Shown here: positions 32,942 through 52,828 of the stretch, one piece after another
Position numbering within the stretch: position 1 is the first letter of the stretch
How the letters are laid out: each line of letters starts with the position of its first letter
DNA from: Parvularcula sp. BBD 1991-13
GTDB lineage: Bacteria; Pseudomonadota; Alphaproteobacteria; Caulobacterales; Parvularculaceae
Direction: 5' to 3'
DNA length: 64,000 nt
Assembly: GCA_001657385.1 (NCBI GenBank)
Contig: LYSZ01000004.1
Span: 1-64,000, forward strand
Program-made: the position numbers and the translations under genes
Notes under the pieces: generated by a model
Database searches by the model: none
What the model saw: the letters and a program-made list of their open reading frames with translations, nothing else
Told to the model about the DNA's origin: nothing

Positions 32942-33018
32942 GCCGCCTTAGCTCAGTCGGTTAGAGCGCTTGATTGTGGATCAAGAGGTCCCCCGTTCGA
33001 ACCGGGGAGGCGGTACCA
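32942..33018 (+). tRNA. tRNA-His (GTG), G-1 absent, CCA encoded
   Basis: A full cloverleaf of 74 nt plus encoded CCA. The acceptor stem pairs GCCGCCT with AGGCGGT (G1-U72), the D arm is GCTC/GAGC, the anticodon arm CTTGA-TTGTGGA-TCAAG gives anticodon GTG (His), and the T arm is CCCCG-TTCGAAC-CGGGG. The base before G1 is A and base 73 is A, so the usual His identity pair G-1:C73 is missing. This loss is known in one clade of alphaproteobacteria. The 3' half is the left attachment site of the island that follows. Confidence 0.96.
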
Positions 33019-33027
33019 CCTAAATCC
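32972..33027 (+). repeat. attL of the tRNA-His island
   Basis: The 56-bp copy inside and just after the intact tRNA-His. The central 28 bases (32986-33013, T arm and acceptor strand) are identical to the copy at 52773-52828. Four mismatches lie in the anticodon-arm part and the CCA region. The match continues 9 bases beyond the CCA. Confidence 0.92.
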
Positions 33028-33084
33028 CTGATATTACTTAGTAAAATAAATGATCAGAATCTAGGATTTGGCCCAAAATCCCAA

Positions 33085-33106
33085 TTAGGTTCATTTTTAG
33101 GTTCAT
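33085..33106 (+). promoter_or_regulatory. Pair of probable integrase arm-type sites (left)
   Basis: TTAGGTTCAT occurs at 33085 and 33097, in direct orientation 12 bases apart, just before the integrase start. The same box recurs as pairs at the right end of the island. Such repeats inside att regions fit binding sites of the integrase N-terminal domain and may also autoregulate the integrase gene. Confidence 0.7.
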
Positions 33107-33125
33107 CTTTTGCAGGGTGGACCGA

Positions 33126-33299
33126 GTGACCCAGATCAGTTTCACAGACCGTTGGCTTCGCAACCTAAGGCCGGACGGAACCCCGTCCGAGTTCACGGAC
33201 GCCTCATGCCCGAACCTGCGATTGCGGGTCGGCAAGCGCTCCAAGACCTTCTCCGTGATGATTGGCGTCGCGAAATCCCGCCGCCGCGTCATGCTGTGA
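33126..33299 (+). pseudogene. int: Tyrosine integrase, N-terminal fragment
   Basis: The frame reads VTQISFTDRWLRNLRPDGTP, then SEFTDASCPNLRLRVGKRSK and TFSVMIGV. This is the arm-binding (DUF4102-like) N-terminus of tRNA-targeting P4-type integrases, which normally run to ~400 residues with a catalytic R-H-R-Y set. Here the frame ends at 33299, right where the left terminal repeat of an IS21-family remnant begins (33295). GTG at 33126 is the probable original start. No C-terminal catalytic part is found elsewhere in the window, so the enzyme is dead. Confidence 0.85.
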
Positions 33300-33420
33300 A
33301 TATCGGTGCAAAAGTGTGCCGGCTGGCCGCCTGATTCTGGCGGCGTAAAAGTGGGCCAATGAGCGTGTCGCGGGATATTTTCCCGGGTTTTGCGAGGAGC
33401 ATGGCCCCGGGGATGTACGG

Positions 33421-33576
33421 CGTGAGCTTATACGAACAGATCGTATCCGCCTCAATGGAGGCGTAGGCGTAAAGCTGGGCGCGATCGCGTTTGACTTGGA
33501 CGCCTTCTACGACGGTGTTGCGGCGGATGGCTTTGAAAGCTACGGCGTCCGGCTTGGTCTAGGTAGCTCGTTTTAA
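33421..33576 (+). pseudogene. C-terminal beta-barrel fragment of an outer-membrane protein
   Basis: An open frame without start reads TDRIRLNGGVGVKLGAIAFD, then LDAFYDGVAADGFESYGVRL and GLGSSF before a stop. Alternating hydrophobic strands and the terminal aromatic Phe are typical of the last strands of an autotransporter or porin barrel. Upstream is IS21-end sequence, so only the tail remains. Confidence 0.5.
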
Positions 33577-33748
33577 TCGAGGGCAGTCGCCGGCTGTAGT
33601 CTTTGTGCAGACTGCTGTTATGTCCGATAACTCTGGCGGACTCAAAGGGTCGACGCAACGCGAGCCAATTGGGCACACGCCTTCACGTTGAATGGAAATG
33701 TTTTCCCGCTTCGAGTAGAGTCCTGTTTTGACCTCTTGGAAGCTGTGC

Positions 33749-34186
33749 ATGCTTAAAAGAACTCTTTGGTATCTGGGGATTGTTCTATTTTTCGGGACAC
33801 TTAGGGGACTCTCTTCGGAACCCAACCCCGACCTGCCAGCCTACTATGCCTATATTGAGGGCTACGTGTTCATGGCTTTGATTTGGGGCATGATCTATTT
33901 CAATGCCGTCATCAGCCAGGTTCCCGTTTCGGGCAGCATAAAGGTGCTTTTGACACTCATGACCGCCATGGCTGCGGGATTGATCGCGTTCTCGTTCTAC
34001 AAAACCCTTGGAAGCGGAGAAGTCATGGAAAATATTAAGGCCGGTTGGGGAGATGATATAGAATCGTACACAGAGTACCCAATAAAGGGATACCAATTGG
34101 TTGGAACATTGATTTCATTATTATATTTGGTTGTTGGCGTTGCGCAGTGGTTTTTTTCGCTTGCTCAACGAGCGTCCACTAAGTAG
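33749..34186 (+). CDS. Low-GC membrane protein, function unknown
   Basis: About 145 residues with four predicted membrane helices (near residues 5-17, 36-54, 63-84 and 117-138) and an acidic loop (GSGEVMENIKAGWGDDIESYTEYP). The GC content is clearly lower than that of the flanking chromosome, so it is foreign. Its last codons abut the truncated end of an IS3 remnant, so the C-terminus may not be the original one. ATG at 33749 is chosen over 33728. Confidence 0.55.
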   Translation: MLKRTLWYLGIVLFFGTLRGLSSEPNPDLPAYYAYIEGYVFMALIWGMIYFNAVISQVPVSGSIKVLLTLMTAMAAGLIAFSFYKTLGSGEVMENIKAGWGDDIESYTEYPIKGYQLVGTLISLLYLVVGVAQWFFSLAQRASTK

Positions 34187-34846
34187 CTGCGTATTCAGGC
34201 ACTCCGCTCGTAGCCGGCCATTAAACGCTTCGATGAATGCGTTGTCGGTTGGTTTGCCGGGGCGGGAGAAGTCGAGCGTCACGTCGTTCTGATACGCCCA
34301 CAGATCGACATCCCGAGAGATGAACTCCGAGCCCTGATCGACCCGGATTGTCTCCGGATAGCCGATCGCCTTGCAAACGCGTTCCAGGGTTTCGACGACA
34401 TCTTCACCGCGATAGCTAAAGCGCGGATCGATGACGGGCGAAAAACGTGAGAACGTATCTACAACAGTCAAGATGCGGATCTTTCGGCCTGTCGCCAGCT
34501 GGTCGTGAACGAAGTCCATGGCCCACGTTTCGTGCGGTCCCGTGGCGTCTTTTCGGTCATCCCGCAGCTTCGCCTTCACGCGCCGTTTTGGCGGCTTTTT
34601 CCTAAGCTGCAGGCCCATTTCGTTATAGATCCGGCGCGTTTTCTTGTGATTGATCTCCCAACCTTCACGCCGAAGCATCACGTGCACGCGCCGATAGCCA
34701 TAGCGCACACGCGTTTCACGGATTTCCTTCATCCGCTGTTCGATCGCGGCCTGGTCGGGCCGACGAGATTTGTAGCGATAGCTCTTCGGATCGAGTTGAA
34801 TGACGCCACACGCTCGGCGTTGCGACACCTTCCAGATCGCCTGCAT
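34121..34846 (-). pseudogene. IS3-family transposase OrfB, 3'-truncated
   Basis: The frame has the OrfB helix-turn-helix part (VSQRRACGVIQLDPKSYRYK), HTH_21 (YGYRRVHVMLRREGWEINHKKTRRIY) and the rve core with DDE residues: D in TWAMDFVHD, D in IRVDQGSEFISRD, and E in NAFIEAFNGRLRAECLN. After LRAECLNT at ~34190 the protein departs from the family and runs into the neighbouring membrane-protein gene, so the last ~50 residues are lost. Confidence 0.88.
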
Positions 34847-34878
34847 CTCGTCGACCAGCGTCCTCTTCCGAGCAGGCC

Positions 34879-35040
34879 TCAGAGCTTTCGCTTGATGACG
34901 TCCTGGAGCATCTCCTTGTCAAGCGCGAGGTTGGCGACGATCTTCTTCAGCCGCGCATTTTCCTGCTCAAGCTCGCGCATCCGTTTCATCTCGGACGGCA
35001 TCATGCCCGCGTACTTCTTCGTATCCGGGCGGCGAAGTTC
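34879..35040 (-). pseudogene. IS3-family transposase OrfA, C-terminal fragment
   Basis: The readable part is KKYAGMMPSEMKRMRELEQE followed by NARLKKIVANLALDKEMLQD and VIKRKL. This is the leucine-zipper end of IS3 OrfA, in the correct order before OrfB with the frame change expected for programmed frameshifting. Upstream of the KKYAG segment the sequence switches abruptly to IS21 istB, marking the junction of the two insertion sequences. Confidence 0.82.
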
Positions 35041-35046
35041 CCCGCC

Positions 35047-35604
35047 GTGAAAAGCCTCGATACGTTCGACTTCAAGGCGATCCCGAAGCTGAACAAGACA
35101 TTGGTTCAGGACCTGGCGCGCTGCGAATATATCGGCCGCCGCGAGAACATCATCGCCCTGGGCCCGAGCGGAACCGGCAAAACCCATATCGCCCTGGGGC
35201 TTGGTCTCGCCGCCTGTCAGAGAGGGCTCGCCGTGGGCTTCACAACGGCTGCCGCGCTCGTCCACGAATTGATGGAAGCGCTGGACGAGAAACGGCTCCT
35301 GCGTCTTCAGCGCCAGATCGCCAATCTGAAGCTCCTGATTATCGACGAACTCGGTTTTGTGCCGCTGTCGAAAACCGGCGCGGAACTGCTGTTCGAGGTG
35401 TTCTCGCAGCGTTACGAACGCGGGGCGACCATCGTCACGACCAATTTGCCGTTCGACGAATGGACCGAAGTGTTCGCCTCCGAGCGTCTCACCGGGGCGC
35501 TGCTCGACCGGCTCACTCATCACGTCCATATCCTGGAAATGAACGGCGAAAGCTATCGGCTCTCAGAGGCCAAGAAGCGCCGAGCCGAAAAACCGGCGTC
35601 ATAA
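35047..35604 (+). pseudogene. istB: IS21-family helper ATPase IstB, 5'-truncated
   Basis: About 185 of the usual ~250 residues. It begins at KSLDTFDFKAIPKLNKTLVQ, which corresponds to about residue 60 of IstB. Walker A is GPSGTGKTHIALGLG, Walker B is LKLLIIDELGFVPL, and TIVTTNLPFDEWTEVF and LLDRLTHHVHILEMNGESYRL are hallmarks. The N-terminus has been replaced by the IS3 remnant. It cannot transpose because istA is absent. Confidence 0.9.
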
Positions 35605-35904
35605 GAATACTGAAAATCTTTCGCCCGGCCGAAGGGCTGAACTCATGGAAAAGGCGCGCTTTGACTCGTGGGCGGTCAGCGCGCTTTCCCACAGTTCAGC
35701 GCACATCACGCCAGCCTCAGTGGTACAGTTTTACGGCGCCAGACTGGTACGTTTTTACGCCGCGATTGACAGACTCCAAGGCCCGGCGCGCATTGATAGA
35801 ACTTATCTTAACTGCCATATCGGGCTGCCAATTCAACATAAACTGCCATATATCGCGGTTAGCATATCCGTGGCGGCGTTGAAATAGTTGGTCAGTGGCA
35901 CGCC

Positions 35905-36165: not shown

Positions 36166-36381
36166 AGGGTAAGAATAGTGAGTTGAGGCTACGCCGGCGG
36201 CGTGACGAACCCTCTGCACCTGGCGGCAAAAGCATGGGAAATCTCACAGGCCGAAGAAACACCAGGCCGGCCGCTCCGATCACTCCATGGTGAGGCTTTC
36301 AACCCTGGCTGATTGGGAGCCAATGGGCCGCTGATTGGAAGTGTGGGTGGCAATCCACACAGCGGGGCGCGGTTCCTCAAC

Positions 36382-36684
36382 ATGCATGCCGCAGCCAGCG
36401 TGCCGGAGGAGAACATGAAGCTCGCCTTCGTCATTCACGGCCGCGCGGTCTATGACGTGACGCGGCAGGATCTGTACGGGGAGGCGGTCTGCGGTGAAAA
36501 CGCGACCGCGCCGCTTGTCGCCGCGCTGATCGAAAAGGGCGTTGACATATATGTCTGTGGACAGAGCGCCGCTTACTACGGCGTCACGACCGCCGATCTT
36601 CTGCCCGGCGTCAGGATGGCCCTGTCCGCGATGACGGCGCATGCGCTGCTGCAACAGGACGGCTATACGGGCATTCCGTTCTAG
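36382..36684 (+). pseudogene. DsrE/DsrF-family protein, probably 5'-truncated
   Basis: About 100 residues of a DsrE-fold sulfur-relay-like protein: SGARFLNMHAAASVPEENMK begins in the middle of the fold, before KLAFVIHGRAVYDVT. The Cys in KGVDIYVCGQSAAYYGV matches the conserved position of the family. The first beta-alpha unit (normally ~40 residues) is missing, as the sequence upstream of 36360 is unrelated. It may still be translated from ATG at 36382. The Crp-type regulator gene follows 110 bases later. Confidence 0.65.
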
Positions 36685-36793: not shown

Positions 36794-37483
36794 GTGGCCG
36801 GACTTTTAGATCACGGAAGCCTTAGACTGGTCGATCTCCTGAGCGAGTCGGCGAACAGGGCGATCGAGTCGATTGAACGGCGTTTCACCTATGAAGACGG
36901 GCGCGTGATTTTCGCGGCCGGCGATGTGGATCAGCGCCTGCTGATTGTGCGCTCGGGCGCAGTAAAAATAGGCCGCATCGGCGCTGACGGGCGCGAAACG
37001 ATCCTCGCCGTGCTGGGGCCGGGCCATTTCGTCGGCCTGGTCGGCGTCATGGTCGGGCGTGTGCGCGGCCAGAACGCGGTCGCCGTCGGCGAAACGACGC
37101 TCGGCCATCTGGATAAGGACGACTTTTTCGCGCTGATGGATGCTCATCCGGAGATCGCCCGCGCGGCGCTTCCGGCCGCCCTGAGCCGGTTGAGCGCGGC
37201 CCTGAATTTCATCGACGACGTGCGCCGCCTGCCTCTCGCTGTCCACACGGCGGTCTTTGTGCAGAGCATGCTGAAGGCGTCCGGGGAGGACGGCGTCATC
37301 CGCTGGAGCCAGTCGGATATCGCGCTCGCCGTCGGCGGCTCGCGGGTCTCGGTCGGCAAGGCGCTCAAGCGCCTGGAGAACGCCGGTTTCATTCGTCAGA
37401 AATACGGCGTTATCGAAGTTTGCGATCCGCAGGCCCTGGCCGCGTGGATCGATGCGGCGAGGGCGACGCATATGAATGATTGA
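36794..37483 (+). CDS. Crp/Fnr-family transcriptional regulator
   Basis: A 229-residue regulator. The cyclic-nucleotide-binding fold runs from FTYEDGRVIFAAGDVDQRLLIVRSGAVKIGRIG (in part) to ~residue 125, and the C-terminal helix-turn-helix has WSQSDIALAVGGSRVSVGKALKRLENAGFI. There are no N-terminal Fe-S cysteines as in Fnr. It starts with GTG and has AGGGAGG 13 bases upstream. It is convergent with the DUF1254 gene and may control the receptor cluster on the opposite strand. Confidence 0.88.
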   Translation: MAGLLDHGSLRLVDLLSESANRAIESIERRFTYEDGRVIFAAGDVDQRLLIVRSGAVKIGRIGADGRETILAVLGPGHFVGLVGVMVGRVRGQNAVAVGETTLGHLDKDDFFALMDAHPEIARAALPAALSRLSAALNFIDDVRRLPLAVHTAVFVQSMLKASGEDGVIRWSQSDIALAVGGSRVSVGKALKRLENAGFIRQKYGVIEVCDPQALAAWIDAARATHMND

Positions 37484-37495
37484 GCCCGGCAGGAG

Positions 37496-38974
37496 TTACG
37501 GCGCGGAGACGGGCTCAAGCGGGGGCAGGGCCAACTCGCGGTCATAAAGCGACCGGGTGGTCTGCGCGGTCGGCGAATAGATGCGGAACGTCACCCGGTA
37601 CGGCCGGCCCTCGGGAGAGGGCAGCCAGTTGCGGTTGAGTTCGCCCCCCGGCGCGTCGGGCTGGATGTAGAGATCCAGCGATCCGTCTTCGTTGTATTTC
37701 AGATCGTGGCGGCTGCCGATGGAATAGCGGTTGATGGGATTGTCGACCAGGAGATAGCTGTCGCCGTCATACATCGTGACGGACCAGAAGCCGAGGTCAT
37801 TGATCTCGGGGATGTCCTCCGGCTCGAAGCGCATCGTGTAGCGGCGCGCGCCGTCGAGCGGTTCGTTCTCCGCGTCGAAATACGTGTAGAAATAAATCGC
37901 CTCCTCGGGGTCGTTGCCCAACAGGCCGACAAGCGAGATCGCCGCGCGGGCCGCGTAGTCGAAGACGATGTTGTCGGCGTACCGCGCGGTGTCCCAGCCG
38001 GTGGGGAAGCGTCGGCCGCGATTGCGCCGCAGATACTCCATGACCGCGGGGCCGTCCTGAAGCGCGCGCAACACCCCGGCGCGCGTGTCCGGGTCGAGCG
38101 CTTCCGGATCGAAAGGCCGCCCCGGCTCCAGACCGATGCGCCACAGCGTTGCGTTCATTGCCGCGTGGCGTTTGGGCGGCGGGTTTTCGCCGAGCAGCAC
38201 CGCGGCCTTTTCAAATCTTGCGAACGGCCCCTTGAAGTCCTTTCTTGCCTTCGGTGCCGGAATGGCGGGCCGGATGTCGGTCGGACCGTCAGCCCATGCC
38301 GAAAGCGGCGTCAGCGACATCTGGTCCTGATAGGCGCGCACGGTGGCGAGATCCTGTTCGTTCCGCCGGACCGCAAGGCGGATAGCGAGAACAGCGGAAT
38401 TGGTGTCGACCTCGACCTTTTCAACACCGGGCGGCAGCGCGCCGTCCCAGTCCGGCCCGACGAAGGCGAGCTGCGCCGCCTCGCCGCCATTGACGCGCGG
38501 CGAGTAATGGTAGGTCTGGTTTTCCATGTAGGCGTTCGTGGTCTGCACCACGGCGTAGCGGTCCTGAATGGCCGGCATGTCGAGAATCACGGGCTCGGCG
38601 GCGAGGTCCAGCGCGACGCCCGTGTACACCGTGTCGTTATTCGGACTGTAGGGCATGTCGCTCCCGGCGTCCGCGAGCCATGACATGTGTCCCAGCCGGT
38701 TCAGCGGCGCCATCGGGCCATTGGCCTGCGCCTCGGTCAGCGTTTCGCGGCGCTTGCGTTCGCGCTCCAGGATGAATAGCGGATAGGTGTAAAGATAGGC
38801 CTGAAGCGCGAGGCTGTAAGCCAGCGCCTCGCGCCCCTGCGCGTCGGTCTCGCCGATGACGACCGTTTGCGCGCCGGTCTGGGTCCCGGTCTCCGCGCCG
38901 GCGGGGGGCGGGGCGGGCGCGCAGGCGGTGGCGGCTGTCGCGGCGGCGGCGAGGAGCGAGTGCTTCAAGATCAT
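37496..38974 (-). CDS. DUF1254/DUF1214 lipoprotein
   Basis: A 492-residue protein. The signal peptide ends in a lipobox-like ATACAP. DUF1254 is recognisable by NRLGHMSWLADAGSDMPYSPNNDTVYTGVALDL (segment) and the following QDRYAVVQTTNAYMENQTYHY. DUF1214 follows with DLGFWSVTMYDGDSYLLVDNP and RYSIGSRHDLKYNEDGSLDLYIQ. The function of the family is unknown. It is the last gene of a three-gene minus-strand cluster with a TonB receptor and a secreted protein, so it may process what the receptor imports. Confidence 0.85.
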   Translation of the reverse strand: MILKHSLLAAAATAATACAPAPPPAGAETGTQTGAQTVVIGETDAQGREALAYSLALQAYLYTYPLFILERERKRRETLTEAQANGPMAPLNRLGHMSWLADAGSDMPYSPNNDTVYTGVALDLAAEPVILDMPAIQDRYAVVQTTNAYMENQTYHYSPRVNGGEAAQLAFVGPDWDGALPPGVEKVEVDTNSAVLAIRLAVRRNEQDLATVRAYQDQMSLTPLSAWADGPTDIRPAIPAPKARKDFKGPFARFEKAAVLLGENPPPKRHAAMNATLWRIGLEPGRPFDPEALDPDTRAGVLRALQDGPAVMEYLRRNRGRRFPTGWDTARYADNIVFDYAARAAISLVGLLGNDPEEAIYFYTYFDAENEPLDGARRYTMRFEPEDIPEINDLGFWSVTMYDGDSYLLVDNPINRYSIGSRHDLKYNEDGSLDLYIQPDAPGGELNRNWLPSPEGRPYRVTFRIYSPTAQTTRSLYDRELALPPLEPVSAP

Positions 38975-38990
38975 TAAACGAACCTTTCGA

Positions 38991-41351
38991 TCAGAATTGA
39001 GCGGAGAGACGCGCGCCTATCGTGCGCGGCGCGCCGGTGTTGCAGCGAACGAACGTCCCGCCTGTCGTCGGGTCGGTCAGCCCCAGTTGGCCGCCGAGCG
39101 GCTGGTAGAAGCTGACGTCGCAAAAGCCCTTGTCGGTGAGATTTTCTCCGAACACGGAGACGCTGACCATCTCGCCCGGCGCGCTGACCGTGAGGCGAGC
39201 CGACACCAGCGCGTAGCCGTCCTGCAAGACCTGCGGGTTGTTGTCGATCGCGCCGCCGACGAATTGCGAGCCGATATAGTTGAAGCCTGCATTCGCCCGC
39301 CAGCCCCAGTCCGCAACGGCGCCGTCCAGGTTGACAAAGAGGTTGCCGGTCCATTCCGGCGCGAAATGGTTGCGCCCGCCGGTGAGGTCCTGAACCGACC
39401 GGTTGCCGCCGACCGGGCCGCAGCCGTCAATCTCGGGGCTTGAGGGCCTGCATCCGGGCAGCGCCTGGGCGCCCTCGAACGAGGTAAATTCGGAATCGAG
39501 ATAGGCGAGGCCGCCGGTCAGCTCGACGCCGTCGGCGATCCGAAGCGAGCCGTCCGCCTCGACCCCCTGATGGACGAGCGATCCGGCGTTGCGGGTGAGA
39601 AAGTCCACCCCGTCAAAACTGCGCGCCTGGAAATCTTCCAGCTCGGTGCGGTAAAGCGTTAGAGCCACATCGAGCCGGTTGTCGAAAAAGAGGCTTTTAA
39701 ACCCGACCTCGAAATTATCCGCGGTCTCGCTGTTGAAGGTGCGATCCTCGGCGGTGAGAACGGATGTTCCGCCGCCGGAGTTAAAGCCGCCGGATTTATA
39801 GCCCGTGCTGTAGGAAGCAAAGACGAGGCTATTCCCGGTCGGCGCGTAGTTGAGCCCGACGCGCAGGGTCGGCCTGTCGTCGGAGAAGGTCAGATCCGTG
39901 TCGGCGGGCGCGCGGAAGGCGATCCCGGCGAAGGGGTTCGCGGCTTCCTGCAGGAAACGCCCGTCGCGTTCGTCCCATGTGTACCGCGCGCCCAGCTGAA
40001 GCGTCAGCGCGTCGGTAAGCACAACCTCGCCCTGGCCGTAAATCGCGATGCTGTCGGAATCCTGCGACATGCGCAGGTCCGTCGCTTCTCCGCGCGGCGC
40101 GTTGAGGCAGGGTGCGCGCAGCGGCGGCGGGGCGAAGCTCGCGCACAGGGCGGGCGTCAGCGACAGCGTTTCGGAGAACAGCGCGTCCTCATGCGAGACG
40201 TAAAGGCCGGCGACGAAGCTGAAACGATCGTTGAGCAGCCCCTCCGGCGACGCCAGCCGCAACTCGTGCGACCAGCTTTCGCTCTCAAGGCCGGAGACGC
40301 GCCCGGTCAGGGGAACGGTGAGGAAGAAGATGTCCTCATCCACCTGCTGGTTGTCGTAATCGCGCCAGCCGCTCACAAGGCTCAGTGTGTAGCCGTTGTC
40401 GAAAGCGTAGCTGAGATCGCTCGAGACGCCCCACTGGACGTCGGACAAATCCCCGCCGACGATATGGTTCACCCGGAAGTCGAACGGATCGTCAAGCTCG
40501 GGGAGATTGTCGGCCCCGCCGAGAAGGGCGGTCAGCGTCGCGCGCCCCTGCGGCGTCAGCGTGTCGCCGAGCGCTTCGGCGGCGCTGCGCCCGTCGCCGC
40601 TCAGCCGGGTGTGGTCAAGCCGCACCGTCCAGCTCAAGGCGGGCGTGACGTCGAACGCCGCGCTGGCGCGAAAGGCGCTCGTGCTTTCGAACCCGAAATT
40701 GCTTTCATCACTGATCAATTCGCCGAACCCGTCGAATTCCGACGCCTGGGCCGCGAACCGCAGGCGCACCGAGTCGTTCACCGGCATGTTGACGACGCCC
40801 TCGACCTGGCGGCGCCCGAACTCGCCGAACTCCACGGAGCCGCGCGCCTCGAACTCATCGCCGGGCGTGGCCGAGTTCAGGATCACGCCGCCCGCGGTCG
40901 AGTTGCGGCCGAACAGCGTTCCCTGCGGCCCGCGCACCACCTCGACGCTCGCGATGTCGAGAAAGGAAGCGTAGAGGATTGACGGGCGCGGGATGTAGAC
41001 GCCATCGAGGAAAAAGGCCGTGCTCTGATCGGCGGCGGTGTTGCCCGCCGTGCCGATGCCGCGCACTACGATGCGCGTGTTCGCGGCCACCGCGCCGCGG
41101 GCCGCGTAGAAATTCGGCACGGCCCGCCCTAGTTCGAGGACGGAGGTTATGTTGCGCGCTTCAAGGTCTTCGGCCCCCGCGGCGACGATCGACAGCGGCA
41201 CGTCGCGAATGCTCTGATCGCGTTTTTGCGCTGTGACCATGATCACGTCCACCGTGTCCGCCCCGGCCTGATCCTGCGCGGCGGCCGGACCGCTCAGGCA
41301 AAAAGTGAGTGTAAGGATCGATCCTCCGAGCAAGATCTCTTTTTTCATCAT
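38991..41351 (-). CDS. TonB-dependent outer-membrane receptor
   Basis: A 786-residue receptor. Signal peptide (LGGSILTLTFCLSGPAAAQ), TonB box-like DTVDVIMVTAQKRDQSIRD, plug domain with VPLSIVAAGAEDLEARNITS and VEVVRGPQGTLFGRNSTAGG, then a 22-strand barrel with SLVFASYSTGYKSGGFNSGG and the terminal aromatic ARLSAQF. The sequence type is that of Caulobacter-like receptors for siderophores, carbohydrates or hydrophobic substrates. The substrate is not predictable. DUF1254 starts 16 bases after its stop. Confidence 0.93.
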   Translation of the reverse strand: MMKKEILLGGSILTLTFCLSGPAAAQDQAGADTVDVIMVTAQKRDQSIRDVPLSIVAAGAEDLEARNITSVLELGRAVPNFYAARGAVAANTRIVVRGIGTAGNTAADQSTAFFLDGVYIPRPSILYASFLDIASVEVVRGPQGTLFGRNSTAGGVILNSATPGDEFEARGSVEFGEFGRRQVEGVVNMPVNDSVRLRFAAQASEFDGFGELISDESNFGFESTSAFRASAAFDVTPALSWTVRLDHTRLSGDGRSAAEALGDTLTPQGRATLTALLGGADNLPELDDPFDFRVNHIVGGDLSDVQWGVSSDLSYAFDNGYTLSLVSGWRDYDNQQVDEDIFFLTVPLTGRVSGLESESWSHELRLASPEGLLNDRFSFVAGLYVSHEDALFSETLSLTPALCASFAPPPLRAPCLNAPRGEATDLRMSQDSDSIAIYGQGEVVLTDALTLQLGARYTWDERDGRFLQEAANPFAGIAFRAPADTDLTFSDDRPTLRVGLNYAPTGNSLVFASYSTGYKSGGFNSGGGTSVLTAEDRTFNSETADNFEVGFKSLFFDNRLDVALTLYRTELEDFQARSFDGVDFLTRNAGSLVHQGVEADGSLRIADGVELTGGLAYLDSEFTSFEGAQALPGCRPSSPEIDGCGPVGGNRSVQDLTGGRNHFAPEWTGNLFVNLDGAVADWGWRANAGFNYIGSQFVGGAIDNNPQVLQDGYALVSARLTVSAPGEMVSVSVFGENLTDKGFCDVSFYQPLGGQLGLTDPTTGGTFVRCNTGAPRTIGARLSAQF

Positions 41352-45051: not shown

Positions 45052-45537
45052 TTAGAGGTCTTTCACCGCCGTGTGCTGAATTGACGGCCAGGTCGCTTCA
45101 GCTTTTTTGAGAATGTTCTTTTTGTCTCTTTTGTATTTCTCAAAAATCTCCGCATTGACGAAGAGATAGAGTTTGCCGTCGACAATGTCGGCGTAATGCG
45201 GATCGCCGTCGAACTTCTTGCCGAGGGCGACAGCGAAAGCGCAGAAGCCGCCATATTGCGGTTTGTACTGGTCCGGCGCTGATTTGAACCGGCGCGCCGA
45301 TTCCGCCGAGGCGAAGTAATACGCAACGCCGTCATCGACGACGGTGTGCGCCGCATCGCCTTCCGCAACCGCATTCAGCGTCGTAAGCGCAACGGCGTCG
45401 ACGCCGTGGAGGCCGAGGGGAACGCCGGCGGTGGTGACGCCCGTCGAGACGTTATGTTCGTCGGCGGCGTAAGCGGACAAGGATGTTGCGAGAGCGACTG
45501 CGATCGCGGCGATGGAGGTTTTAACAAGGTTTGTCAT
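45052..45537 (-). CDS. Exported YHS-domain protein
   Basis: A 161-residue protein with a signal peptide (SIAAIAVALATSLSAYAADE). The YHS-like core has GLHGVDAVALTTLNAVAEGD, YYFASAESARRFKSAPDQYK and PQYGGFCAFAVALGKKFDGD; the Cys in GGFCAFAVA is conserved in this family, where metal or copper binding is suspected. It lies between the isochorismatase-like and DUF1348 genes on the same strand, in a likely TetR-controlled operon. Confidence 0.85.
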   Translation of the reverse strand: MTNLVKTSIAAIAVALATSLSAYAADEHNVSTGVTTAGVPLGLHGVDAVALTTLNAVAEGDAAHTVVDDGVAYYFASAESARRFKSAPDQYKPQYGGFCAFAVALGKKFDGDPHYADIVDGKLYLFVNAEIFEKYKRDKKNILKKAEATWPSIQHTAVKDL

Positions 45538-45675: not shown

Positions 45676-46524
45676 TCAGCGCTGATACGCAGCCCTGACG
45701 GCGTTCACCGTGTTTTCAGTGTTGTCGACCGCGCTGGCGATCATGCGGAAGTTGGTGAGCGAAGCGGCGTAGCCGTTGTAATGTTCGGTGATGGCGCCGG
45801 CGGTCGCGTCGGTGACGACCATTACTTCAAAACCGTTTTCGATGAGGGCGCGCATATGCGATTCAGTGCAGAGGTTTGACGACATGCCTGCGAGGATCAC
45901 CTTGTTGACGCCGGCTTTTCGAAGCTGCAGCACGAGGTCGTTGCTGTCGGGGCCATAGACCTTGTGCGGGCTCGTCACGACGGTTTTGCCGTTGTTGATG
46001 TAGGGCTTGTACTGGTCGAGCCAGTCGGCGCCCGAGCCTTCGAAGGCTTCAAGGGTCAGCGCGTGCGGACGATCGAACATGCCGATATTGTGCATGAGCG
46101 TTTCGAGCGTTCCTTCGAACCGCCATTTGTGATCGTGCTCGAAATAATAGTGCGGCGAGACGAAGACCGGCATGCCGGTTTCACTCGCAACCTTGAACAA
46201 CGCGCCGATATTCTCGACCGTACCGTTCTCGGTGATGCTCTTTCCGACAACGCCCCAGGTGACGCCGTCCGGTGAGAGGAAATCGTTTTGCGGATCAGTC
46301 ACGACGATCGCCGTGTCGCCGGCGGTAATGTTGAAACCCGGCGCCGGCAAGCCGTCATTGATCGGCGGCGTCTTCGCCGTGGCGGCGCGCGAAATTTCGT
46401 CGGCGGCGTAAGCCGGCGGCGGCGCCAGGAAATAGGCGGCGGTCATGACGCCGGCGATCAGCGCCAGGTTGGCGAGGGTGCTGACGGCGAGGGCGTTGGC
46501 GGCCCGGCTGTAGAAATTGTTCAT
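45676..46524 (-). CDS. Isochorismatase-family cysteine hydrolase, exported
   Basis: A 282-residue protein. An N-terminal hydrophobic segment (LANLALIAGVMTAAYFLAPP) acts as signal or anchor. The cysteine-hydrolase fold has the catalytic Asp in VVTDPQNDFLSPDG and the nucleophile Cys in LAGMSSNLCTESHMRALIEN. EVMVVTDATAGAI is typical. These enzymes hydrolyse amides such as nicotinamide or ureidoacetate; the substrate is unknown. The ATG at 46524 follows AGGGAGATGAAC-type sequence. It is divergent from the TetR regulator, with three operator-like motifs between. Confidence 0.87.
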   Translation of the reverse strand: MNNFYSRAANALAVSTLANLALIAGVMTAAYFLAPPPAYAADEISRAATAKTPPINDGLPAPGFNITAGDTAIVVTDPQNDFLSPDGVTWGVVGKSITENGTVENIGALFKVASETGMPVFVSPHYYFEHDHKWRFEGTLETLMHNIGMFDRPHALTLEAFEGSGADWLDQYKPYINNGKTVVTSPHKVYGPDSNDLVLQLRKAGVNKVILAGMSSNLCTESHMRALIENGFEVMVVTDATAGAITEHYNGYAASLTNFRMIASAVDNTENTVNAVRAAYQR

Positions 46525-46604
46525 CTCCCTGTTCCTTTCCTTCAAAGGCGATGATGCGTCGTTTGAGGAGCGGCCCGGCCGCCCGGCTCGCCGATCGAAC
46601 ACAT

Positions 46605-46783
46605 TTACCGATCGGTGAACCTTGAATAGATTACATGTACCAATCGGTCAATGTGTAAAATTTAAAAAATGAGAATTCGACGCGAATTTCTTCCTGAACA
46701 TGCGTATCAAATTGAAAACAATCACAAAAAAGTTTGTTCCCTTGCATGTTGATGGTGAATCTCATACTTACCGGTCAGTAAGT
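46605..46783. promoter_or_regulatory. Three TetR-operator-like motifs
   Basis: The motif TACC(G/A)(A/G)TC(G/A)GT occurs at 46605-46619 (TTACCGATCGGTGAA), 46638-46651 (TACCAATCGGTCAA) and 46766-46783 (ACTTACCGGTCAGTAAGT, a perfect 6-6-6 palindrome in its arms). They lie between the divergent isochorismatase and TetR genes. This is the expected layout for a TetR protein that represses itself and its neighbour. Confidence 0.75.
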
Positions 46784-46807
46784 GTAAAAACGCAGGAAAG
46801 CCCCGGA

Positions 46808-47383
46808 ATGAGTGCTTCAAAACGCGACGAACTGGTGCAGAAGGCGCTGCGCGCTTTCTATCAGGGCGGTTTTCACGCCATCGGCATGGACCGCCTGGCG
46901 AAAGAGACCGGCGTTTCAAAAACTGCGATCTACAAACATTTCCGCACCAAGGAAGAGCTGATCCTGGCGACCCTGCGCCTGCGGGACGAGCAGTTCCGCA
47001 ACTGGCTCCTGCGCCGCGTCGAGACGCTCGCTGCGGATCCGAATGGTCAGCTGCTGGCGATTTTCGACGCGCTGGCGGAGTGGTTCGAAAAGCCGGAATT
47101 CAAAAGCTGCATGTTCATCAAGGCGTCATCGGAGTATCAGGATCGGGCCCATCCGATCCACGCTGCTTCCGCTGAACACAAACGGCTGCTTGCGGTCGAT
47201 TTCACTGAACGCGCGAAGAAGGCCGGCGCAAAGGATCCGGAAGCGCTGGCGCGCGAGTTGTTGCTGTTGAAGGACGGCGCTATCGTCCTTGCTCATCTTC
47301 ACGACGGCGCGCAGGTGGCGAAGGACGCGCGCCGGGCTGCTGAAAAAATAATCAGTGCATCAATTTATTTGCAGAAAGACTGA
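46808..47383 (+). CDS. TetR/AcrR-family transcriptional regulator
   Basis: A 191-residue regulator. The HTH is KRDELVQKALRAFYQGGFHA followed by IGMDRLAKETGVSKTAIYKH and FRTKEELILATL, the classical TetR DNA-binding domain. The C-terminal ligand domain resembles TetR_C_6-like sets with FKSCMFIKASSEYQD. The ATG at 46808 is chosen; the upstream open frame overlaps the operators. It probably controls the divergent isochorismatase-YHS-DUF1348 genes. Confidence 0.92.
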   Translation: MSASKRDELVQKALRAFYQGGFHAIGMDRLAKETGVSKTAIYKHFRTKEELILATLRLRDEQFRNWLLRRVETLAADPNGQLLAIFDALAEWFEKPEFKSCMFIKASSEYQDRAHPIHAASAEHKRLLAVDFTERAKKAGAKDPEALARELLLLKDGAIVLAHLHDGAQVAKDARRAAEKIISASIYLQKD

Positions 47384-47506: not shown

Positions 47507-48442
47507 CTACCGCCTTCGTGCGCGATATTCATATGGGCTTTCGCCTTTGATCCGTTTGAACGCAGCGCTAAAAGCGAAAGGACTTCTATAGCCGACTTTC
47601 TCCGAGACTGTCCCGACGGTTTCATCCGGACGGCTGAGCAAGTCTTCCGCCAACGCCATGCGCCAGTTCTTGAGGAATGTCATCGGCGGTTCACCGACGA
47701 TGTCATTGAAGCGGCGCGCCAAAGACGCGCGCGAGGCATTCGTCTTCGAGGCTAGCTTGTCCAGGGTCCACGCATATGCAGGGTCCTTGTGTATTAGCCG
47801 AAGCGCCCGCTCCACAATCGGATCGCCTTGTGATTGCCACCAAGCAGGGCGATCTGAATCTCTGGTGGCGATCCATGACTTCAGCACAGCGGTCAAAAGC
47901 AGATCGAGCAGCCGATCGAGCACAGCGGCTTGCCCCGGTTCGTCCTTTGTCACTTCGTCGGCCAGAATAGGAACCAGCGGTGAGTTCCAATCGTCTTTGT
48001 TTAGAGCCAAGACTGGCGGCAGCGTTTTTGCAAGTTTGTCGCTCACGGTGCTCAAATGCTCATACGCGCCGACAACAAAGACACATTCGCCCGCAGGATC
48101 GTTTCCCCAGGTTCGGACGCCATGTGTCATTTCTTCGAGTACGGAATTTCCTTCAAGATCGCAGCAGCGCTGTTCGGGATGGATAATGATGTCCGGCTTC
48201 GTATCGAGAGCGCCCACGACACTGTAATGGTCAGGCGCACGCGTTACGGCGACGCCGCCCGGCCTGATATGAAGCGGTTCCGCATTGTCAGGCGCAACCC
48301 ATAAATCGCCCTCAACCGCAGCGATAAGTGTCGCCGGGGATTCCGCCAGAATGCGCAATCCCCAGGGCGGGCTCATGGCGCAGCGAAGCGCAAACGCGCC
48401 GCGGGCGCGCGTTCCTTCCAAAAGATTGGCGATCGCGTCCAT
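47507..48442 (-). CDS. AraC-family regulator with cupin-type N-domain
   Basis: A 311-residue protein. The N-terminal part matches the AraC cupin_6 type (WGLRILAESPATLIAAVEGD, LHIRPGGVAVTRAPDHYSVV). The C-terminal double HTH has WTLDKLASKTNASRASLARR, FNDIVGEPPMTFLKNWRMAL, AEDLLSRPDETVGTVSEKVG and YRSPFAFSAAFKRIKGESPY. It is divergent from DUF1772 across ~100 bp and probably controls the DUF1772-MBL-serine hydrolase set. Confidence 0.92.
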   Translation of the reverse strand: MDAIANLLEGTRARGAFALRCAMSPPWGLRILAESPATLIAAVEGDLWVAPDNAEPLHIRPGGVAVTRAPDHYSVVGALDTKPDIIIHPEQRCCDLEGNSVLEEMTHGVRTWGNDPAGECVFVVGAYEHLSTVSDKLAKTLPPVLALNKDDWNSPLVPILADEVTKDEPGQAAVLDRLLDLLLTAVLKSWIATRDSDRPAWWQSQGDPIVERALRLIHKDPAYAWTLDKLASKTNASRASLARRFNDIVGEPPMTFLKNWRMALAEDLLSRPDETVGTVSEKVGYRSPFAFSAAFKRIKGESPYEYRARRR

Positions 48443-48546: not shown

Positions 48547-49023
48547 ATGTTCCAACTATCTCTCACAGCAATTCTATGGTTTTGCGCCGTAGGCGCCGGG
48601 CTCATGGCTGGCGTTTACTTCGCATTCTCGAGCTTCATTATGACCTCGTTGGCGCGGATTGAAACATCGGCGGGCATTCTCGCCATGCAATCGATCAATG
48701 ACGTCATCCTCCGCTCGGCTTTTATGCCGATTTTCTTCGGAACATCCTTCGCCGCCGCTGGTGTTACAGCGATAGCATTGTTGGACCTGTCTAGACCGGG
48801 CGCGCTCTCAATGATGAGTGCGGGGATCATCTATTTTGGCGGCATGTTTCTCAGCACGATCATTTTTAATGTGCCGCTGAACAACAAGCTCAAAGATGCG
48901 GACTCACATTCGGCTTACGGCGCAGAAGTTTGGGACTTGTACCTGTGTCAATGGACGCGCTGGAACCACGTCCGAACTGCTGCGTCCATCGCTTCGAGCG
49001 CTCTCTTTTTCATCGCAATCTAA
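48547..49023 (+). CDS. DUF1772 (anthrone-oxygenase-like) membrane protein
   Basis: A 158-residue protein with four membrane helices. GLMAGVYFAFSSFIMTSLAR, MQSINDVILRSAFMPIFFGT and the FNVPLNNKLKD motif are the marks of DUF1772/anthrone oxygenase-like proteins, followed by WTRWNHVRTAASI. Some family members oxidise anthrones without a cofactor, but most are uncharacterised. First gene of a three-gene plus-strand set. Confidence 0.88.
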   Translation: MFQLSLTAILWFCAVGAGLMAGVYFAFSSFIMTSLARIETSAGILAMQSINDVILRSAFMPIFFGTSFAAAGVTAIALLDLSRPGALSMMSAGIIYFGGMFLSTIIFNVPLNNKLKDADSHSAYGAEVWDLYLCQWTRWNHVRTAASIASSALFFIAI

Positions 49024-49034
49024 GGAGTCTTAAC

Positions 49035-50108
49035 ATGAAAGCATTAAAATTTATTGCGTTCGCCCAGTTCTGCCTCGGGTTGTCAGCGCTTGCGCTGCAA
49101 CCAGGTTACGCCGCGGTCGACAACGACCCGTCACCCCAATTTAACTCCGGCGACGATGTCAGCATGGCGCCCGGTCACCCCAATCACTTCACGGCGTTTG
49201 CGACGGAATCACCGGAAATGCTGGCCCGCATGCCCGCTATCGACCCTGAAACGGGATTACATGTTTCAGAAATCAAGCCAGGATTATTTTATGTGACTGA
49301 AGGCGTCTATCAATCGGCGTTTCTCGTCACCGAGCAAGGCGTCATCATCTTTGACGCGCCGCCGAGTTTCGCCCACAAATTGCCCGACGTTATTGCTGAG
49401 CACGCGCCCGGCATAATAATCCGCTACCTCGTCTACAGTCATGGTCATAGCGATCATATTGGCGGCGCCAGCGTATTTGGAGATGTTGAAGGACTGCAGA
49501 TTGTCGCCCATGCGGCGACCGTGCAAAGCATGGAACGAGCGGCCCGTCCCGGCATTCTCGTCCCGACCATAACATATGATGCGCCCTATGAATTCTCGCT
49601 TGGCGGCGAAACCGTAGAGCTCACGCCAGCGTCCTTTCATGCCGAGGATATGGATACGATCGTGTATCTGCCGCGGCAGAGATTTGTCATGGCGGTCGAC
49701 ACCATCACGCCCGGCGAAGCTGCGTTCATGAATTTCGGCGCCACGTCTGATGTCGGCGCCTATATGACGTTCTTCGATACGATCCTGGCGTATGAATTTG
49801 ATCATATTCTGTCAGGTCATGTTTCGGTACTGGGCGCGCGCGAGGATGTGATCATGGCGCGCGACTATGCGCATGATGTCTGGCGAACCGCCGGCGCCGG
49901 CATGGCGACTTTTCTCGATCGCTTCAACACAACGCTGGCCGCTCTTGAATACAAGAACGCTAATCTCGCCTATCGGGCGACAATCGAAGCTGTGCGGCGA
50001 GACTGCGCAAGAGAAATAATCGACCGATGGACCGGGAAATTGTCCGTAGTTGATGTGTGGGCTGACAGCCACTGCCAGACCGTGATTCTGTACAACATCA
50101 TGCATTAG
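49035..50108 (+). CDS. Exported metallo-beta-lactamase-fold hydrolase
   Basis: A 357-residue protein with a signal peptide (ALKFIAFAQFCLGLSALALQ). The zinc motif is YSHGHSDHIGG, with H136, H138, D140 and H141. Further ligands probably lie in ASFHAEDMD, RFVMAVDTITPGE and DHILSGHVSVLG. This group includes exported lactonases and alkylsulfatase-like enzymes; the substrate is unknown. The ATG at 49035 has AAGGAGTCTTAAC upstream. It starts 11 bases after the DUF1772 stop, so the two are co-transcribed. Confidence 0.88.
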   Translation: MKALKFIAFAQFCLGLSALALQPGYAAVDNDPSPQFNSGDDVSMAPGHPNHFTAFATESPEMLARMPAIDPETGLHVSEIKPGLFYVTEGVYQSAFLVTEQGVIIFDAPPSFAHKLPDVIAEHAPGIIIRYLVYSHGHSDHIGGASVFGDVEGLQIVAHAATVQSMERAARPGILVPTITYDAPYEFSLGGETVELTPASFHAEDMDTIVYLPRQRFVMAVDTITPGEAAFMNFGATSDVGAYMTFFDTILAYEFDHILSGHVSVLGAREDVIMARDYAHDVWRTAGAGMATFLDRFNTTLAALEYKNANLAYRATIEAVRRDCAREIIDRWTGKLSVVDVWADSHCQTVILYNIMH

Positions 50109-50152
50109 CATAGAAGCGCGGCGCCGCTGACCCTGGCGCGCGGAGCGAAAAG

Positions 50153-51400
50153 ATGAAATTGTTGAAACCTATCTTTGTTGTTCTTGGCTCAATAGCAGCA
50201 ATCGCCGCCTGGTCCGCCTTGGCCGTCTTTGTAGGGTTTTATGGCTGGTGGATGAAGCCGGTTGCGCCACGAGACGACCACGCCGCGTTCTACGCCGAAG
50301 CGGTGCGCATCATCGAGGCGTCCAATCTCGGCAATAGCGCGTTCGTTTTGATGGAAAACGGAGACGTCGTCGGTCAACACTATTGGCAAGACCGGCATGG
50401 CGTGGATAAAAACACCGTTTTTCCGACGGCCTCATTCAGCAAGTGGATTACGGCGCTTGGCGTCTTGTCACTGGTCGAAGATGGGCTGATCAATCTCGAC
50501 GACCCGGTATCCATTCACCTGACGCGCTGGCGGCTGCCGGATAGTCCATACGACGAAGACGGCGTCACAATTCGCCGCCTTCTCAGTCATACAGCGGGCC
50601 TCACTGACGGCTTGGGGTTTGGCGACTATGAAGCCGACGAAACCTTGCCGACGATTGAACAATCATTGATCAAACCCCGCGCGTCATCGGGGCGAAATGT
50701 CGAAGTCGCGATCGGCGCGGAACCCGGAAAGGAGTTTGCATATTCCGGGGGCGGTTATCTCATCCTGCAACTCCTGATCGAAGAGGCGTCGGGCCAGGAC
50801 TACCAGAGCTATATCAAAGAGAAGATATTGGATCCGCTTGGGATATCGAATTCGTCATTCGACTTTATTGGCGGTATCGGCGGCGCGACGAAGTCATTTG
50901 ATGCGACGGGCAAACCGGCGCCGCAATATCAATACGCCGCCGCCGGCGCCACGGGGTTCGCGAGTTCCGCCGCCGATTTGACACGCCTCGTGAAGGCGAT
51001 TGCGGTCGCCGACCCGGCGCTTGGTCTCGGCGCGCAGACTCTGCAGTCCATGCGTGAACCGGAAGCCTTCGTTTATGGCGCCGGCATTTGGGGGTTTGGG
51101 ACAATGCTTTATGCGCCGACACAATCCGGCGACTCAGTTTTTGGTCATGATGGCGCTAATGAACCGGCGATCAATGTGTCGGTGCGCATTAATCCAGAAA
51201 CAAATGATGCGTATATCATGCTCGTGAACGGTCACTCGTCGCTGGCGTCCGATATCGGTGCTGAGTGGGTGCTTTGGCAGTCGGGTAAGCCCGATTTTTT
51301 GTCGACGGAACGAGTTCTGAAAAGCGCCCTTTTGCCTGCGATCCTGGGAAGCGCTTTTATTCTGTTCCTGTCCCTTCTTTTGTCGAGGCGACGAAGCTGA
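50153..51400 (+). CDS. Serine hydrolase (class C beta-lactamase/DD-peptidase fold), membrane-anchored
   Basis: A 415-residue protein with an N-terminal membrane helix and a C-terminal one (LLPAILGSAFILFLSLLLS). The SxxK motif is S94-F-S-K97 in FPTASFSKWITALGV, the second motif is YSGGGYLILQLLIEEASG, and the third region holds FGHDGANEPAINV. These are the elements of penicillin-binding/EstB-like hydrolases. The role could be peptidoglycan or ester hydrolysis. It is the third gene of the DUF1772-MBL set. Confidence 0.88.
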   Translation: MKLLKPIFVVLGSIAAIAAWSALAVFVGFYGWWMKPVAPRDDHAAFYAEAVRIIEASNLGNSAFVLMENGDVVGQHYWQDRHGVDKNTVFPTASFSKWITALGVLSLVEDGLINLDDPVSIHLTRWRLPDSPYDEDGVTIRRLLSHTAGLTDGLGFGDYEADETLPTIEQSLIKPRASSGRNVEVAIGAEPGKEFAYSGGGYLILQLLIEEASGQDYQSYIKEKILDPLGISNSSFDFIGGIGGATKSFDATGKPAPQYQYAAAGATGFASSAADLTRLVKAIAVADPALGLGAQTLQSMREPEAFVYGAGIWGFGTMLYAPTQSGDSVFGHDGANEPAINVSVRINPETNDAYIMLVNGHSSLASDIGAEWVLWQSGKPDFLSTERVLKSALLPAILGSAFILFLSLLLSRRRS

Positions 51401-51429
51401 CCGGTGCGCGGCACAAGTTGATCACTTTC

Positions 51430-52442
51430 AATGGCGCAAACCAGTTGTGCGCGGACCCCGCGGTGAAGTCTCATCGGCGATGAGTTCTGCAGCGCGCGCC
51501 TCCTGATAGACGGCTGACAATTCCGTCGGGCGCGCTTCGGCGAGAACCGTGATGAGGGGTCGCGCCTGCTTCCTGATCCTTCTCCGATTGCGCGCGGCCA
51601 GGACCCTGGCGCCGCGTGGCGACAATCAGTTTGTGTACGGTGTAGCGTTCAGGCTGCGGGATCTGGACGAGAACGCCTTCGCGGTAAAGCGCGACGGCGG
51701 GGATCGGGTTCCGGATGAGGAAGTTCAGAAAATGAAGGTCCCGCGCTCAGACGCCGAGCCCTTCGAGTTTCTGCGGGCCTTCCTGTTCGTCAAATGAGGG
51801 CGAAAGGAAATCCACGACGAAGTCGCCGGGCGTCATGCGCCATCGCGTCGGTCGTTTCTGGTCGAGTGAGCTGATCGGGGAGAGGCCAAGCGAGGCAAGC
51901 ACCTGGGGGAGTTTGGCGTCGGCGCGATCGTCTACGGTCAGCGAAAGCTTTTCAAACCAGGTGATATCGATATCAGCGGTGATGGCCGTCGTTGTTGACG
52001 ATATCCTGACGCCGAGCTCCAGGTCGTAAAGCTGGAAGGCGTGCGTGCCTGCTAGGACGCCGCCGAGGCGAAAGGCGCCGGCCCGGGCAAGGGCGCGCAT
52101 AACCTTTCCGGTTGTCATGTCGAGGGCGGGGAGGCGCGCCGCCCTCAACGCTGCAGCTTTTTCCGACGCGTTTGCGCGAAAGGACATTGTGTTTTCCTGG
52201 GCCATGCGCCAGCCATCAATCCGCGTACGGGTCTTTTCATCGTCCGCACCGATGAATTGCTGCCTGTGACGCCCTCCCGGCTCGCGGACCGTGACGCACC
52301 AATACGCTTTGCCGCCCGTTTCGCGCAGATGCGGCGAGCCCGTCATCTCTTCCGGCGCATGGTGGAGACGGGCTTGAACGAGGTCTTGATAACGGGTCTG
52401 GAGGGTGAGCGGGATACTGTCTATGACGTCGCTATACCGCAA
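51430..52442 (-). pseudogene. GSU2403-family nucleotidyltransferase-fold gene with in-frame stop and frameshift
   Basis: The open part (52442-51747) has the family's signature: RLGGVLAGTHAFQLYDLELG, ADIDITWFEKL and PTRWRMTPGDFVVDFLSPSF. It ends with KLEGLGV at a TGA. The same frame continues directly after the stop with ARDLHFLNFLIRNPIPAVAL, YREGVLVQIPQPERYTVHKL and IVATRRQ, which is still family sequence. A later shift of frame gives QARPLITVLAEARPTELSAV. So the gene carries a nonsense mutation and a frameshift. The family is common on mobile islands, with unknown role. Confidence 0.8.
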
Positions 52443-52510
52443 ACTTTTTTTGTGGTGCGTGATTCTATAAGGGACTGAATAAAAAAGTTTTTTCTTTAGG
52501 TGGCTGAAAA

Positions 52511-52643
52511 ATGAACCTAGAATGAACCTAAAACACCGAAAAATGCGCTAGAATCTAGCAAAAAGAGCCAGAATGATAGAGGATTTATCGTCGCCGGGCC
52601 GATTTCGGGCGAAAATCGGTTTTTAGGTTCATTTTAGGTTCAT
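52511..52643. promoter_or_regulatory. Two pairs of probable integrase arm-type sites (right)
   Basis: The first pair is in reverse orientation (ATGAACCTA at 52511 and ATGAACCTAA at 52522). The second pair is in forward orientation (TTAGGTTCAT at 52623 and 52634). The boxes in each pair are 11 bases apart. They match the left pair at 33085-33106. A shared AGAATCTAG also occurs near both ends (about 33057 and 52550). The arrangement fits the two arms of an integrase attachment site. Confidence 0.72.
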
Positions 52644-52772
52644 CGAAGCCCTGGATTTGCGTGGATTCCCGTGAACCCGCGTGGATGCGGATTCAACCAT
52701 AAAATGAATTAAGATATTGAAAATAAATGATTAAATCGGCTGAAGCGCTTGGGTTGGAAAAACCAGTGAATA

Positions 52773-52828
52773 GATTGTGGCTCAAAAGGTCCCCCGTTCG
52801 AACCGGGGAGGCGGCGCCACCTAAATCC
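52773..52828 (+). repeat. attR of the tRNA-His island (tRNA 3'-end copy)
   Basis: It contains the anticodon-arm remains, the complete T arm and the 3' acceptor strand of tRNA-His, plus 9 flanking bases, with four mismatches to attL. The 5' half of a tRNA is absent, so it is not a working tRNA gene. Confidence 0.92.

Follow-up and report, generated by a model that had tools for sequence, protein, structure and literature searches.

A probable CIME-like relic in the tRNA-His gene of Parvularcula sp. BBD 1991-13, bounded by a displaced half-tRNA repeat and paired GGTTCA motifs

Decayed derivatives of integrative and conjugative elements (ICEs) or integrative and mobilizable elements (IMEs) are defined as cis-mobilizable elements (CIMEs) in PMC5704250. 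Within the Alphaproteobacteria, two further sources describe Mesorhizobium ICEs adjoining tRNA-His (PMC8627217) and the intH region of a Bradyrhizobium symICE at tRNA-His (PMC9239051), and the likeness of these elements to the locus considered here lies in the insertion site. Our literature search returned no paper combining Parvularculaceae and genomic island. We analyzed a 64,000-nt stretch of Parvularcula sp. BBD 1991-13 (assembly GCA_001657385.1, contig LYSZ01000004.1, positions 1 to 64,000; hereafter the window), in which the interval 33.03–52.77 kb is very probably an integrative element inserted into the tRNA-His gene at its 3' end by way of a tyrosine recombinase, and that survives as a CIME-like relic. 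This kind of element is already known; its interest is that the two boundaries of an insertion are now fixed for a group that has received little study. The two ends are secured because a half-tRNA repeat, the start of an integrase gene and recurring paired GGTTCA motifs all agree:

32942..33018, + strand: intact tRNA-His(GTG), the integration target (ARAGORN)
32972..33030, + strand: attL, tRNA-His 3' part plus 12 nt (repeat finder, local-alignment scan)
33086..33106, + strand: left-end pair TAGGTTCAT, GGTTCA at 33088 and 33100, putative arm sites of the integrase
33126..33296, + strand: integrase remnant, 57 aa (matches to relatives' tyrosine recombinases)
52512..52528, - strand: right-end inverted pair, TGAACC at 52512 and 52523 (motif scan)
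52626..52642, + strand: right-end direct pair, GGTTCA at 52626 and 52637, starting 147 bp ahead of attR (motif scan)
52773..52831, + strand: attR, displaced tRNA-His 3' part plus 12 nt (repeat finder, local-alignment scan)

The sole tRNA gene found in the window is the intact tRNA-His(GTG), and because it was also the only complete match reported in the whole assembly, where the best 16 of 184 candidates were scored, this copy is presumably essential to the host. A direct repeat of 59 nt (32972–33030 and 52773–52831; 54 of 59 positions identical, or 92%; spacing 19801) runs from the anticodon arm to 12 nt beyond the CCA of tRNA-His, with mismatches at positions 9, 14, 43, 44 and 57. An earlier note on this DNA had described a 56-bp repeat with four mismatches, which our analysis bears out, the fifth mismatch (position 57) falling outside those 56 bp. 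It had also placed one copy in an intact tRNA-His and the other in a fragment lacking the 5' half, and here ARAGORN, the repeat finder and RNA folding concur: the right copy has no tRNA 5' half, and its folding is no more stable than that of its shuffles (z score 0.41, compared with -1.98 for the intact gene). The locus therefore has the arrangement of a tRNA-targeted island, since the 3' part of the tRNA is duplicated at the far end and the target tRNA is whole. A local-alignment scan (threshold 16) of 100 kb, comprising the window and the following 36 kb of the contig, gave matches at attL and attR alone and no third att copy; the right copy scored 46.5, compared with 10, 11.5 and 12 in three mononucleotide shuffles of the 30.7-kb interval. 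Among 18 stretches around tRNA-His (15.7–20 kb each) taken from 17 relatives, a second half-tRNA-His copy was not found at a threshold of 15, and the other matches were short and lay inside the tRNA itself.

The integrase gene begins 107 nt past tRNA-His, and insertion sequence (IS) debris cuts in after codon 57. The 57-aa fragment alone matches no Pfam family, and the same part of four relatives' integrases matches Arm-DNA-bind_3 (PF13356). Matches to the fragment (E <= 0.001) occurred in 10 of 62 genomes of the family, its own included. All five of its closest relatives start 100–119 nt downstream of a tRNA gene on the same strand, which is tRNA-His in genome G048, tRNA-Arg in G054 and tRNA-Tyr in G005, G021 and G008, and six of seven weaker loci also had a tRNA (Lys, Met or Thr), the remaining one (L073) having none. 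The integrase is about 400 aa long in four of the five closest relatives and ends at 135 aa in G008; the ~400-aa proteins all contain Arm-DNA-bind_3, and three of the four match Phage_integrase (E <= 0.01), one below the curated cut-off. An integrase gene adjoining the target tRNA, as in tRNA-targeted islands generally, is thus represented here by the 57-aa remnant and in the relatives by ~400-aa genes of the same layout. Because tblastn with the five relatives as queries found no further integrase pieces in 33–53 kb (best other E value 0.013), and because the contig has a single Phage_integrase match, at 395.8 kb and thus outside the island, only the arm-binding portion of the gene seems to survive.

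Paired motifs give a further mark of the ends. GGTTCA pairs spaced 10–13 bases apart occur three times in the 100 kb, all at the island's two ends, compared with a chance expectation of 0.013 on average (maximum 1) in 300 sequences generated by a first-order Markov model with matching composition. On the left, AATTAGGTTCATTTTTAGGTTCAT is located between attL and the integrase start. An exact GGTTCA pair was present at the integrase end in four of six elements compared (this island, G048, G054 and G005). At the far end, a pair precedes attR-like copies by 138 and 139 bp (two copies in G048) and 136 bp (the first copy in G054), similar to the 147 bp measured here. Their position, together with the arm-binding domain of the integrases, suggests that the paired motifs are integrase arm sites.

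The fullest matching element that we found, in G048 on contig 12 (L095, L096, L104–L106), belongs to another genus of the same family, and on this point the present locus differs from CIMEs. It shares with the present locus the order M48 peptidase, tRNA-His, integrase, an integrase 66% identical over the fragment, GGTTCA pairs at both ends and, by eye, a repeat that starts at the same anticodon-arm base. The two differ in size, with att-like copies 74.2 and 84.4 kb away in G048 compared with 19.8 kb here, and in content, as a type IV secretion system (T4SS) coupling protein and a Type III methyltransferase lie inside the G048 element, and neither was found in this island. On the strength of these two genes the G048 element looks like an ICE. 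Its attR-like copies lie 10 kb apart, and perhaps it consists of two elements in tandem.

Several observations weigh against reading 33.03–52.77 kb as one integrative element. The integrase ends of G021 and G008 lack an exact GGTTCA pair, having looser versions by eye, and for G005, G021 and G008 the 20 kb taken from each revealed no far end marked by a motif pair; the half-tRNA copy in G008 lies 2.8 kb in and has no pair. Similarly, the second attR-like copy of G054 has no motif pair nearby, and one G048 pair (79825 of the joined stretch) stands far from any att copy. None of the relatives offers an exact empty site, since the tRNA end plus 9 nt of the flank common to attL and attR occurs, as an exact pattern, in no other of the 62 family genomes. 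Composition counts in part for the element, the GC content being 0.54–0.58 at 33–36 kb and 0.55–0.59 at 43–53 kb compared with 0.665 in the left flank, but it is host-like (0.61–0.68) at 36–43 kb, and the island interior is therefore a mosaic. Finally, the cargo at 44.2–51.4 kb is colinear in G003 (71–73%), about 860 kb from the tRNA-His of that genome, indicating that this portion belongs to a genus-level accessory cluster and is not peculiar to the element.

We propose that the attP of the element carried the 3' part of tRNA-His, so that the gene would have stayed whole at attL and the old 3' part would have been pushed 19.8 kb away, to attR. The integrase would have bound the paired GGTTCA arm sites at each end, with its cleavage site, judging from the border of the repeat, in the region of the anticodon loop. 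Thereafter an IS21-type element together with an IS3-type piece may have severed the integrase gene behind the arm-binding domain, and a number of cargo genes appear to have broken. Pfam searches of 27 island open reading frames (ORFs), with some short ORFs unscanned, found no relaxase or T4SS family; because neither a transfer gene nor an integrase catalytic domain was found, the element is probably unable to move by itself. Unlike an ICE, it has no conjugation genes of its own among the 27 ORFs, and it resembles a CIME, as characterized in PMC5704250, in keeping attL and attR, in having lost its integration and transfer genes as far as the ORFs were scanned, in occupying a tRNA 3' end, and in having a possible tandem neighbor.

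The contents of the island include those announced by the earlier note (integrase remnant, IS debris, regulators and metabolic genes), in the form of IS3 and IS21 pieces, Crp/Fnr, TetR and AraC regulators and several enzyme families:

33295..35793, strand unassigned: IS debris, an IS21-type remnant containing an IS3-type piece, with outer ends read by eye (Pfam and sequence reading)
34121..34846, - strand: IS3-type transposase piece (HTH_21 and rve, the domains that suggest IS3)
35047..35604, + strand: IstB (IS21) piece (Pfam)
36313..36684, + strand: DsrE family protein (Pfam)
36794..37483, + strand: Crp/Fnr-type regulator (Pfam)
37496..38974, - strand: DUF1254/DUF1214 protein (Pfam)
38991..41351, - strand: TonB-dependent receptor (Pfam)
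42946..43691, + strand: TPR protein, split over two frames and probably broken (Pfam)
44563..44997, - strand: DUF1348 (SnoaL-like) protein (Pfam)
45052..45537, - strand: YHS-domain protein, below the curated cut-off (Pfam)
45676..46602, - strand: isochorismatase-family hydrolase (Pfam)
46700..47383, + strand: TetR regulator (Pfam)
47507..48442, - strand: AraC regulator with cupin domain (Pfam)
48547..49023, + strand: anthrone-oxygenase-like protein (Pfam)
48930..50108, + strand: metallo-beta-lactamase-fold protein (Pfam)
50153..51400, + strand: serine beta-lactamase-fold hydrolase (Pfam)
51561..52456, - strand: nucleotidyltransferase-like gene (PF12281) with an in-frame stop, a probable relict (Pfam)

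By eye, the ends of the IS debris resemble IS21 terminal repeats. The two lactamase-fold proteins scored far under the cut-off of every resistance-enzyme model listed, which covered 25 of 30 matching models for one protein and 14 of 14 for the other. Judging from family names, the island may function in nutrient uptake and small-molecule turnover.

Examination of the chromosome on either side revealed that the variable region is larger than the element. The left flank is colinear with three relative stretches (L031, L032, L033) from 23.5–25.5 kb up to tRNA-His, and among named records the neighboring M48 peptidase gene is closest to Marinicaulis sp. metagenome-assembled genomes (86% and 83% amino acid identity over the best segment); Marinicaulis is classified under Hyphococcus in the Parvularculaceae (Alphaproteobacteria). 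On the right, the shared chromosome begins at ~63.76 kb with genes for dTDP-4-dehydrorhamnose epimerase (rfbC) and the ribonucleotide reductase small chain (Pfam). The distance from tRNA-His to the epimerase gene is 1.1 kb in G020, ~6 kb in G023 and G001 and 14.6 kb in G010, and that to the reductase gene is 14.7 kb in G014; neither gene lies within the stretch taken for the remaining 12 of the 17 relatives. A blastn comparison of 33.03–63.7 kb with the 18 stretches (E <= 1e-5) returned the tRNA part and one 43-bp piece of IS debris only. Retention of the interval as core genome, which the earlier note had named as fatal to its reading, was not seen in these relatives, and from the differing flank distances and the absence of this DNA we conclude that tRNA-His is followed by inserts of varying length across the relatives. 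The variable region is 30.7 kb here, of which the att-bound element makes up 19.8 kb. The relative nearest to an empty site is G020, in which the shared right flank starts 1.1 kb from tRNA-His; it is no clean ancestor, because rfbA lies between tRNA-His and rfbC (named by eye) in that genome and is matched on another contig here, and the G020 stretch did not read as a single frame. In the empty-site comparison that the earlier note proposed, the 18 stretches lack the interval and show no second half-copy, but an attL-type flank, and with it the exact attB flank, appears in none of them. A looser flank search returned CTAAA matches also from G048, G051, G022, G055, G009 and G074; of the first four, which were inspected, G048 and G051 have it after tRNA-His and the other two are not tRNA. 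Separately, contig 2 of G015 (L047, L048) carries two complete tRNA-His genes at a distance of 58.5 kb, the first of them adjoined by an integrase domain, and another island perhaps brought the second whole copy.

Foreign DNA continues to the right of attR, ending at ~59.5 kb if judged from composition and at ~63.76 kb if judged from gene order. The repeats therefore delimit the last element, and the variable region is longer. The claim of the earlier note that they define an integrative element from end to end is supported for the element, with the limit that the variable region runs past attR. Two blocks occupy the remainder:

53147..59472, + strand: low-GC operon encoding FMO-like, 263-aa, 917-aa and 306-aa proteins, outside the element (LmuA model match, comparison)
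59509..63704, + strand: beta-lactamase-fold hydrolase, MFS transporter and LacI regulator, outside the element, with host-like GC (Pfam)

The hydrolase of the second block has a serine beta-lactamase fold, and the MFS and LacI genes are colinear as a pair at other places in several genomes of the family.

The origin of the DNA beyond attR can be explained in more than one way. Perhaps the block is an older insertion at the same site, and it is quite possible, if somewhat short of an even chance, that the segment from 52.83 to ~59.5 kb is what remains of an earlier element at tRNA-His, whose attL was later entered by the 19.8-kb element and whose distal att site was lost. The identity of attL and attR for 12 nt beyond the tRNA is consistent with this history, and the alignment of attL and its flank to the second attR-like copy of G048 covers 71 bp (84.5%), past the tRNA end; such a flank occurs in 0 of the 18 relative stretches, and among the matches inspected outside G048 CTAAA follows tRNA-His in G051 only. 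In addition, a relative of the FMO-like protein lies near the related tRNA-Tyr integrase of G021, a relative of the 306-aa protein lies inside the G048 island, and tandem accretion of such elements is described in PMC5704250. Against it, neither a motif pair, nor a third att copy, nor a tyrosine-recombinase match was found to the right of 52.83 kb. Direct repeats that might close the right block were short only, mostly GC-rich, with no long ones.

A single larger insertion from 33.03 to ~63.76 kb, in which the 52.77-kb repeat would be an internal, secondary att copy, would account for the fact that the chromosome common with G020 restarts only at ~63.76 kb, for the low GC content on both sides of attR (0.55–0.60 from 43 to 59 kb), and for the precedent of G048 and G054, each with two attR-like copies in a row. 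We nevertheless consider it unlikely, as there are just two att copies in the 100 kb and none near 59–64 kb, the motif pairs stop at 52.64 kb, and the GC content is host-like at 59.5–63.75 kb. It is very improbable that the right repeat is a chance tRNA fragment in an ordinary strain-specific region built by IS activity: IS debris and mosaic GC would fit such a region, but the integrase start, the motif pairs at both ends and the similar spacing in relatives at the same or other tRNAs all speak against it. We therefore retain the reading of 33.03–52.77 kb as a decayed integrative element.

The low-GC operon beyond attR consists of four genes in one direction with overlapping ends, the last of which (306 aa), inspected by eye, encodes a membrane protein. 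The FMO-like protein matches LmuA (PADLOC model PDLC03858) at 1.3e-39 over about 270 aa, and the FMO/LmuA domain is also present in plasmid genes that carry the annotation ABC-three component system protein. The definition of Lamassu includes the SMC-type ATPase LmuB. The operon resembles Lamassu in the LmuA (FMO-type) domain of its first protein and differs in its partners, among which no SMC-type ATPase was found; LmuB and LmuC models gave no match in the operon up to E = 10, and no informative model for the partner genes was found in PADLOC, NCBIfam or Pfam. Assignment of the operon to Lamassu was rejected, as a Walker A motif is missing from its first three genes and the partners match no Lmu model. 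Readings of the 263-aa protein as trypsin-like and of the 917-aa protein as PIN-like come from motifs seen by eye only, and single-sequence AlphaFold2 models were uninformative (mean pLDDT 32.6 and 35.1). Among solved structures, the 917-aa protein had no match up to E = 1, the 263-aa protein had one at E 0.3, and the FMO protein had weak matches over its nucleotide-binding part only (best E 0.0027).

The first three genes of the operon recur in order on plasmid pASEM-1 of Asticcacaulis excentricus, where the third gene is a relative of the 917-aa protein (6e-51) and an integrase lies 1.4 kb further on. An operon of like order in G020 sits beside a tyrosine recombinase and a relative of the 306-aa protein. 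The second genes match the 263-aa protein weakly (6e-06 in G020 and 3e-04 in pASEM-1), and the third gene of G020 corresponds by position only, with no detectable similarity to the 917-aa protein (E 1.5) or to the third gene of pASEM-1 (E 0.60). Relatives of the second and third genes were not found in G021. Matches to the FMO protein (E <= 0.001) occurred in 8 of 40 relatives' genomes, the strong ones, besides its own, being G020 (6e-32) and G021 (1.5e-20) only. In a search of 385 genomes of the class, its own included, with the best two or three candidates per genome scored, the 917-aa protein (E <= 0.001) and the FMO protein (E <= 1e-8) matched their own genome only, and viral contigs contained no FMO relative. 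Literature searches around Lamassu, FMO and PIN gave no title or abstract start describing such an operon. A tentative suggestion, which we think rather less probable than its negation, is that 53147–59472 is an undescribed mobile immune module, combining an FMO-type sensor or effector with the 263-aa protein, the 917-aa protein (PIN-like motifs by eye) and a membrane protein and having no SMC ATPase, which spreads on the islands of this integrase clade and on plasmids, and which here would be all that is left of an earlier element in this tRNA-His gene.

The FMO operon is accordingly a candidate defense system without a known partner set, and a better lead than the island itself. For the island, the combination of a half-tRNA repeat and paired GGTTCA motifs ~140 bp inside attR constitutes a signature for this tRNA-targeting integrase clade, usable to seek the ends of other islands in Parvularculaceae.

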